Source of the DNA: an uncultured Erysipelotrichaceae bacterium
GTDB lineage: Bacteria > Bacillota_I > Bacilli_A > Erysipelotrichales > Erysipelotrichaceae
NCBI GenBank assembly: GCA_944327105.1
Contig: CALVGN010000039.1
Location: 1 to 62,297 of the forward strand
Reading direction: 5' to 3'
DNA length: 62,297 bases
Shown here in pieces: positions 24,301 through 26,310 of the stretch (the stretch's first letter is position 1; the number at the start of each line of letters is the position of its first letter). The notes beneath the pieces were generated by a model. The model was not told the origin of the DNA. It made no database searches and worked only from the letters and a program-made list of their open reading frames with translations. The position numbers and the translations under genes were made by a program.

Positions 24301-24330
24301 TTGAAAAGGATTTTGAAAACCTGTTAAGAT
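24301..24330 (+). promoter_or_regulatory. Promoter of the AGCA-repeat reading frame
   Basis: TTGAAA (24301-24306), 18-base spacer, TAAGAT (24325-24330). Six bases later is the ATG at 24337 that opens the repeat-bearing frame, so the transcript would be leaderless. Confidence 0.55.
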
Positions 24331-24387
24331 GCATGTATGAGAAATGAATCGATGCTTGACAACAATATCCATGATCCGCATGCTATG

Positions 24388-24455
24388 AGCAAGCAAGCAA
24401 GCAAGCAAGCAAGCAAGCAAGCAAGCAAGCAAGCAAGCAAGCAAGCAAGCAAGCA
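24388..24455. repeat. Perfect AGCA tetranucleotide tract, 17 units
   Basis: Sixty-eight uninterrupted bases with a period of four. As four is not a multiple of three, gain or loss of a unit by polymerase slippage changes the reading frame; three units restore it. Tracts of this kind and length are classical contingency loci in other bacteria. Confidence 0.95.
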
Positions 24456-24495
24456 GATTTTTAGCGTCACTTCATTATCTTTATATTTTCGTTTG

Positions 24496-24545
24496 AAGAC
24501 ATGCTTTGCCGTTTTCGGTGAAGTATGTCTTTTCTTTATATTTTT
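24496..24545 (+). terminator. Hairpin with T-rich tail between repeat frame and secreted gene
   Basis: AAGACATGCTT (24496-24506) pairs with AAGTATGTCTT (24521-24531), eleven pairs with one G-U, and the loop holds a second small stem CCG-TTTT-CGG. A T-rich run follows to 24546. It looks like an intrinsic terminator or attenuator placed 35 bases before the Shine-Dalgarno start at 24580. Both out-of-frame stop codons of the leader lie at or before its 5' foot. Confidence 0.6.
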
Positions 24546-24579
24546 TAGCGAATGGTTTGTTACTTTGGGAGGAATGACG

Positions 24580-26310
24580 ATGGTAAGAAAGAAATTAAAG
24601 ATGCTATCAGTGGCTATGTTATTTTTTGGGTTGATTATTGGATTTAACAAAGTGGCTTTAGCACAGGATGATAATGATATTCCGTTATTTGAAGGCGATG
24701 ATGTTTGGGTACATGCAGATGGACATCCTGGTGAATTTTCAAATGTTAGATATCGAATAGTCATGAGTCAGCCCAATGTATATGAATTAACTTGTGTAGA
24801 TGAACCTATTTATCTTCAAGATACAGAAATATATACGATTTATGCTGGATATCCTTGGGGTGAAAGAAGTATAGAAATAGATATTTCCAATCAAACCGAA
24901 GCAAATTTTAATGACTTGGACTGTTGGTATGCAACTGGTCAGGTTTCGACAACGAATCCTTCAACGAATCTTGTGTTTCGATCTCAACTTGCAAAAATAT
25001 ATATTGAGCTTGACATGTCAACGTATCCAGGCGACACTTCCTATTTTTCGGCTAGTGCGATTCAAGCGGCGAATGAATTTACATGTGGGCCTGATCATCC
25101 TGAAAGTATAATTCCCTCTGAAAGTCAGGAAATTATAGATTTGAAGGTGGAGAGAATCAAGGAAAAAATTTGGAAAATTGAGGGCTTGCTGATTCCAAGT
25201 CTTCCAGGAAAACTCCACATTCAATATGGGACTAATAATAAAGAGTACGAATTCTCCAAGATATATGGGGAAGAGTTGTTTGCAGGAAAGGTTTATTCAG
25301 TAAAACTTACCTATGATAGTCAGAATAAAACGTTTGATATAAGCAATCCACAAAGTGTAGAGCGCTCAACGTTTACTGCAGAATTCACGATAGGATCTAA
25401 TCCTTTGGCTCAATATGATGTGCTTCCGCAGTCTATATCCGATACACCCATAGAAATGGAACAATCTGGATCATCTGGGTCGGCAATCGAAAAAGCGTTG
25501 AAAGGAACGGTCACTGTACCTTATGAGACAAATCAACTGTCACTATCCGATATTGTTTTCTCAACTTCTTTTCCTGACCATGAAACAATAACATTTGATA
25601 ATGGTAATCCACTAAGTATTAATGGTAATAGCCTTTATGGGTCCATTCGCCTTAGTTCAGAATCGCATTGGAGTTCCGGTCCGATTCCACTTGGAGGAGG
25701 AACAACGCAAACCGTTCTAATCAGACTAGAGTATATTGGCTCTGAGCGATATTATTCACTTGACATAACACGTTCTCCAAAACCCATTTCCACAATATCA
25801 ATATCGCACGAGCTGCTAAATTTTGGCGAGCTTAAACAAGGATATCAGAATGTGACTGCTGAATCCGTTACCATTGAAAATACTGGTAATACTTCCATTG
25901 TTTTGCAACAACCCGCATCGTCAAATTCCTTTGATGTGGGTTCTCTTGGATCATTGCAGCTTGAACCTGGAAATACAACGACATTTACAATTGCACCATG
26001 CATGGGTTTAACCCCGGGAACATATGACGAAACCATTACAGTCAAAACAACGGATGGCATTGAAGCAGCAATATCGTTGAGTGTTGTGGTTAAACCAACT
26101 CAACAAGAAGAAACTATCCATCATTCGACGCATTCAAGTTGTGACGTATATGATAAAAACTGTGATGGTGTGATCACTTGTGAGGAACGTTACGGCCAAG
26201 GATGGACTTGGTCTGAACCAGAAAAAGCATGTATTATGACATCTTTTGATGGTTCTAAAAAACCGATGAACAGTGGCGGATACTCATTTGTTGATACCGC
26301 TGATCAGTAA
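24580..26310 (+). CDS. Secreted protein with ASH-like domain and EF-hand-like loop, phase-variable candidate
   Basis: About 576 residues from the ATG at 24580, which has GGGAGGA six bases upstream; an in-frame ATG at 24574 is too close to that site. The signal peptide is clear (VRKKLKMLSVAMLFFGLIIG, cleavage after VALA). The body is beta-rich. Near the C-terminus an Ig-like ASPM/SPD-2/hydin-type segment begins LLNFGELKQGYQNVTAESV and contains IENTGNTSIVL. It is followed by a loop DKNCDGVITCEE matching the D-x-N-x-D-G-x-I-x-x-x-E calcium pattern, then an aromatic RYGQGWTWSEPEKAC module. No LPxTG anchor. Function unknown; a surface or secreted adhesin-like role is inferred. The gene is A+T rich. 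Confidence 0.75.
   Translation: MVRKKLKMLSVAMLFFGLIIGFNKVALAQDDNDIPLFEGDDVWVHADGHPGEFSNVRYRIVMSQPNVYELTCVDEPIYLQDTEIYTIYAGYPWGERSIEIDISNQTEANFNDLDCWYATGQVSTTNPSTNLVFRSQLAKIYIELDMSTYPGDTSYFSASAIQAANEFTCGPDHPESIIPSESQEIIDLKVERIKEKIWKIEGLLIPSLPGKLHIQYGTNNKEYEFSKIYGEELFAGKVYSVKLTYDSQNKTFDISNPQSVERSTFTAEFTIGSNPLAQYDVLPQSISDTPIEMEQSGSSGSAIEKALKGTVTVPYETNQLSLSDIVFSTSFPDHETITFDNGNPLSINGNSLYGSIRLSSESHWSSGPIPLGGGTTQTVLIRLEYIGSERYYSLDITRSPKPISTISISHELLNFGELKQGYQNVTAESVTIENTGNTSIVLQQPASSNSFDVGSLGSLQLEPGNTTTFTIAPCMGLTPGTYDETITVKTTDGIEAAISLSVVVKPTQQEETIHHSTHSSCDVYDKNCDGVITCEERYGQGWTWSEPEKACIMTSFDGSKKPMNSGGYSFVDTADQ

Follow-up and report, generated by a model that had tools for sequence, protein, structure and literature searches.

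A probable phase-variable AGCA-repeat attenuator ahead of surface-protein genes in gut Firmicutes

What does a perfect four-base repeat do when it stands between a promoter and a gene that has its own start codon and signal peptide? This question is raised by the window (the whole stretch of 62,297 nucleotides analyzed here, from an uncultured Erysipelotrichaceae bacterium), in which an AGCA tract precedes a gene for a secreted protein, an arrangement that a first-pass annotation had read as a phase switch. The features that bear on the question are the following.

24301-24330, + strand: predicted P1 promoter, TTGAAA-N18-TAAGAT with a TG before the -10; its spacing to the start recurs in relatives
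24337-24455, + strand: leader ORF with a putatively leaderless ATG, reading M-RNESMLDNNIHDPHAM-(SKQA)n across the tract; relatives have equivalent ORFs open into the tract
24356-24384, + strand: P2-like element, TTGACA-N17-CATGCT, separated from the tract by 3 nt
24388-24455, + strand: AGCA tract of 17 perfect units, the proposed slipping tract; the unit number varies among relatives
24462-24464, + strand: early stop TAG, 33 nt before the hairpin, reached when the unit number is divisible by 3 (predicted OFF)
24494-24496, + strand: stop TGA, overlapping the hairpin base, reached at unit numbers of 1 mod 3 (predicted ON)
24495-24532, + strand: intrinsic terminator hairpin predicted from sequence, with 17 pairs, a loop of 4 and the T-rich tail TCTTTATATT
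24567-24572, + strand: Shine-Dalgarno sequence GGGAGG, preceding the start of the regulated gene
24580-26310, + strand: proposed regulated gene for a secreted protein (MVRKKLKMLSVAMLFFGLIIGFNKVALAQ...), fimbrillin-like (Mfa_like_1, PF13149, E 4.9e-11)

Most of what the annotation had read from the letters held up on reanalysis. Its count of 17 perfect units agrees with the 17.0 copies at 100% matches returned by TRF for 24388-24455, and AGCA-type runs in the rest of the window reach at most 8 bases. The frame that it placed six bases (GCATGT) after TTGAAA-N18-TAAGAT does run from ATG 24337 through the tract to 26310, an ORF of 657 aa that enters the signal-peptide gene, and the other two frames stop at the TAG and the TGA where it had put them. 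The start at 24580, for which it had proposed an independent Shine-Dalgarno sequence, is an ATG with its own GGGAGG and signal peptide.

The annotation overlooked the terminator and so offered no mechanism. A hairpin of -23.8 kcal/mol (z -8.6) stands between the AGCA tract and the gene's own start, and a promoter scan of 24240-24640, in which P1 was the sole promoter-like site, found none between the hairpin and the gene start, so that RNA polymerase probably has to cross the hairpin to reach the gene. Upstream, a FAD-linked oxidase gene of the same orientation extends to 24257, and the hairpin could on that account be the ordinary terminator of an upstream operon and the tract a neutral repeat, but we regard this as extremely unlikely, as P1 lies between the oxidase gene and the hairpin with no promoter-like site after it, and as the combination is found again ahead of unrelated genes across many genera, with frames that are not random.

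Behind the tract, one frame stops at +6, one stops at +38, and one is open through the hairpin; by unit number, 15 and 18 units lead to the early stop, 16 and 19 to the stop on the hairpin, and 14, 17, and 20 through it. The annotation did not recognize such a layout, but a precedent exists in the pil1 locus of Streptococcus gallolyticus, where GCAGA repeats in a leader ORF switch expression (Danne et al. 2014, PMC3894217). In pil1, expression is low when the early stop falls 39-49 nt short of the terminator and high when the stop is 4 nt before the terminator, within it, or after it; without the leader RBS or ATG there is no switching, and without the terminator expression is locked on. This logic was proven by mutation, and the pil3 layout is the same (PMC3894217). 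Shared by pil1, pil3, and the window are a promoter, a leader ORF containing a short non-triplet repeat, an intrinsic terminator, and a gene with its own RBS. The distance from early stop to hairpin is 33 nt in the window, somewhat shorter than in pil1, with the other two frames at, in, or beyond the hairpin in both, and a surface structure (pil1) or a surface-protein gene (window) lies downstream. A leader start signal is also present, as a leaderless ATG after the P1 -10 in the window and as an SD-ATG pair in Clostridia. New relative to pil1 are the tetranucleotide (AGCA, 4 nt, versus GCAGA, 5 nt, in pil1 and pil3), the apparently leaderless leader ORF (an RBS serves in pil1 and in Clostridia), the breadth of occurrence across several classes, ahead of genes that unlike those of pil1 and pil3 are not pilus operons, and a conserved promoter-like TTGACA-N17-nAnAAT at the tract, the P2-like element, which is not known from pil1. 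The match between the window and pil1 is one of sequence features.

We consider it very probable that a leader peptide controls a phase-variable transcription attenuator at this locus, which would be an AGCA version of the pil1 type, widespread in gut Firmicutes and with a leaderless variant in Erysipelotrichaceae. Transcription would begin from P1, at or beside ATG 24337, and a ribosome would translate the leader ORF across the AGCA tract, where the gain or loss of a unit would shift the frame behind the tract by four bases. With unit numbers divisible by 3, the ribosome would halt at 24462, short of the hairpin, allowing the terminator to fold and leaving the surface-protein gene mostly untranscribed (OFF). 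At 1 mod 3 the ribosome would stop on the base of the hairpin, whereas at 2 mod 3, which includes the sequenced state of 17, it would translate through the hairpin; in either case the hairpin would not fold, and RNA polymerase would continue into the gene, to be translated from its own start (ON). At 17 units the leader frame continues into that of the gene, so this state may also yield a protein with an N-terminal extension. The tract, the ORF, the frames, the hairpin, the independent start, the recurrence of the layout, and the difference in unit number between orthologous leaders are direct observations, while slippage in living cells, termination, and ribosome-dependent read-through are inferred. 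A phase switch in the leader is well supported. Trp-type attenuators likewise place an intrinsic terminator under the control of leader peptide translation and sense charged tRNA by stalling, whereas in the mechanism proposed for the window a heritable repeat number would set the position of the stop.

The same layout was observed in many other bacteria. A search with the window's protein led to tracts in other genera of Erysipelotrichaceae, all with TTGACA about 25 nt upstream, usually with a secreted protein downstream, and with a terminator-like hairpin wherever there was enough downstream DNA. A pattern scan of 84,980 species, which required TTGACA, gave at least 116 loci in Lachnospiraceae, Oscillospiraceae, Ruminococcus, Christensenella, Faecalibacterium, Erysipelotrichaceae, termite-gut Betaproteobacteria, and others; matches in Haemophilus and Neisseria, probably coding contingency loci, were left out. 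Traorella massiliensis, a cultured relative, has three such loci. Among the homologous or analogous loci, 89 have sufficient sequence behind the tract, and 75 of these have a terminator-like hairpin; the gene starts a median of 51 nt after it (52 Firmicutes loci), and the early stop precedes it by a median of 46 nt in relatives. In the literature searched, where no paper on AGCA leaders in Firmicutes was found, the mechanism was known from two pilus operons of one species. Its recurrence with another repeat, before unrelated and mostly secreted proteins of cultured and uncultured gut Firmicutes, would make it a general means by which gut commensals vary their surfaces, and the signature would allow ON/OFF states to be predicted from the number of repeats in a genome or metagenome.

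The start of the leader appears to take two forms in these relatives. In Clostridia, an SD sequence of the AGAAAGGGG type, with strong matches, and an ATG or GTG flank TTGACA; the ATG or GTG stands just after TTGACA in 69 of 78 loci (24 in shuffles, maximum 35), and 68 of these 69 leader frames are open into the tract, compared with 61% in shuffles. In Erysipelotrichaceae, 9 of 11 loci inspected by eye have a -10-like hexamer 6-8 nt before an ATG or GTG open into the tract, which lends support to the leaderless start that the annotation had proposed for the window and suggests that the leader start is mostly leaderless in this family.

The frames behind the tract were compared in the 58 Firmicutes loci with a hairpin, counting the frames in which a ribosome would come as close as 15 nt to the hairpin and shuffling the gap for comparison. 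One or two frames reach the hairpin while the rest stop before it in 57 of 58 loci (45 in shuffles, with a maximum of 53 among 500), in none do all three frames reach it, and in a single locus, with an interrupted tract and a broken gene, no frame does (L013/L018). The result persists when the footprint is set anywhere from 10 to 20 nt. In Clostridia taken separately, 50 of 50 loci are split (40 in shuffles), and in Erysipelotrichaceae 7 of 8, too few loci to beat shuffles clearly. Stops no more than 8 nt from the tract occur in 46 of the 58 loci, versus 25.6 in shuffles. What is conserved is a predicted terminator whose three upstream frames are split between stopping before it and reaching or passing it. 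A difference in unit number is seen directly between the orthologous leaders L088 and L130 of two related Ruminococcaceae, whose tracts differ by exactly 28 nt, or 7 units, while their genes are 77% identical and their leaders nearly identical, with GTG and ATG starts, respectively.

These comparisons also bear on the part of the phase-switch claim that was not supported, namely that the repeat frame is the coding start of the regulated protein. In coding contingency loci of the Haemophilus type, tetranucleotide repeats lie inside the regulated gene and slippage switches its frame; the four-base slippage would be alike in the window, but the repeat sits in a separate leader with a terminator in between. 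That slippage toggles an N-terminal extension of the secreted protein here is, in our judgment, very unlikely, even though ORF 24337-26310 is open at 17 units and in a few loci, L125 among them, one of the frames matches that of the gene. The gene carries an SD, a start, and a signal peptide of its own, and the extension would add about 80 residues ahead of that signal peptide. In most relatives there is no fused frame and a terminator intervenes, so that the repeat was not found within the regulated ORF; as a frame continuous with the gene occurs at only a few loci, a gene-fused repeat frame is not conserved. The other part of the claim, a switch in the leader, is supported by the terminator and the split frames.

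The genes behind the leaders are diverse. By a crude hydropathy rule, and with off-target loci included, 63 of 89 downstream genes encode a signal-peptide-like N terminus. Pfam matches among 52 downstream proteins include InlB B-repeats, BspA LRR, Listeria-Bacteroides repeats, Big_2, Mfa_like_1, RTX, and others, the exceptions being two TetR regulators, and one flagellin-like and one MCP-like protein were judged from their N termini. As these matches are scattered over families, the leader is common to unrelated genes. Within the genome of the window, several secreted proteins share a C-terminal region (24580-26310; G000:C24:196-393; C30:163549-163878; C26:23248-23370), which reads CDxxxxxCDGVxTCxE..GxGWxWSExxxAC in the two that were read and has no NCBIfam match.

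The P2-like element is a feature for which the attenuator model has no need. In about 120 loci, TTGACA-N17-nAnAAT with an A-rich stretch upstream lies inside the transcribed leader and ends at the tract, the nAnAAT mostly 0-6 nt before it; in Clostridia, the two key -10 positions are A in 89% and T in 91%. A separate search of the family that did not require TTGACA found it before 7 of 7 tracts with upstream DNA. In the window, TTGACA (24356-24361) and CATGCT (24379-24384) are 17 nt apart. The element could act as an additional promoter, cause a sigma-dependent pause, or promote slippage. We suggest only tentatively that it is a working part of the switch, either by pausing RNA polymerase in a sigma-dependent way, so that it keeps pace with the leader ribosome, or as a second promoter that opens at the tract and raises its slippage. 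Were this so, the leaders would represent a repeat-attenuator module that has spread or repeatedly evolved across phyla and that owns a part not known from pil1.

An effect of tract length without leader translation has to be weighed here as well. In Moraxella catarrhalis, the AGAT repeats of the uspA2 5' UTR act through tract length; both there and in the window a tetranucleotide lies upstream of a surface-protein start, while our proposal for the window involves a translated leader and a terminator. P2 could be the main promoter, with transcription beginning inside the tract and tract length acting as a 5' UTR rheostat, and the conservation of TTGACA-N17-nAnAAT and its A-rich upstream stretch in both Firmicutes and termite-gut Betaproteobacteria, so close to the tract, would fit this. 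We nevertheless think it improbable, since it leaves unexplained the SD-ATG signature, the open leader frames, and the frame split around the terminator, and since the P2 -10 of the window (CATGCT) is poor and was not called by the promoter scan.

In the Betaproteobacterial loci, the P2-like element is a near-consensus promoter joined to the tract, mostly without a clear leader start codon, and this combination precedes surface-protein and other genes. Because a clear leader start is mostly lacking, the tract and P2 may have another role in these bacteria. Eight of these loci (L072, L078, L110, L123, L124, L136, L161, and L164) read CTTGACA...CATAATTTTT(GCAA)n. Viral contigs with AGCA tracts are mostly unrelated to the layout; two of them, L258 and L236, have the same layout with TTGAAA or TTGCAA replacing TTGACA, and in L258 a GGATAACTGCGCCC segment also follows the tract.

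Additional structures around the tract were also considered. The tract as an insertion element was rejected, as no common mobile boundaries were seen. An inverted repeat, CTTGACA...TGTCAAG, flanks the tract in only 9 of 57 Clostridia, though more often than in shuffles (1.1, maximum 5); TGTCAAG, the reverse complement of the CTTGACA before the tract, follows it in L062, L067, L071, L076, L094, L096, L105, L125, and others, and could possibly form an RNA stem over the leader start or be an antisense promoter. RNAalifold on 47 leaders gave no common RNA structure, and Rfam had no family above its gathering score at the leader in 12 loci, while complementarity between the leader RBS region and the segment after the tract is on average above that of shuffles (mean z -1.08). 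A TwoAYGGAY RNA (RF01731) lies on the opposite strand near one tract locus (L137:5017-5180).

The genome of the window has two further tracts, one of 11 units (C24) and one of 8+6 units with one changed unit (C43). The latter (L018:8583-9816, G000:C43) is interrupted by AGTA and is the locus whose hairpin is reached by no frame; its gene is broken after about 40 codons and followed by recombinase-like DNA near the contig end. In two other loci, the AGCA tract is followed by runs of other four-base units, GGAA in L080 (from 505 onward) and AGCC in L023 (from 517 onward), which suggests turnover of the unit.
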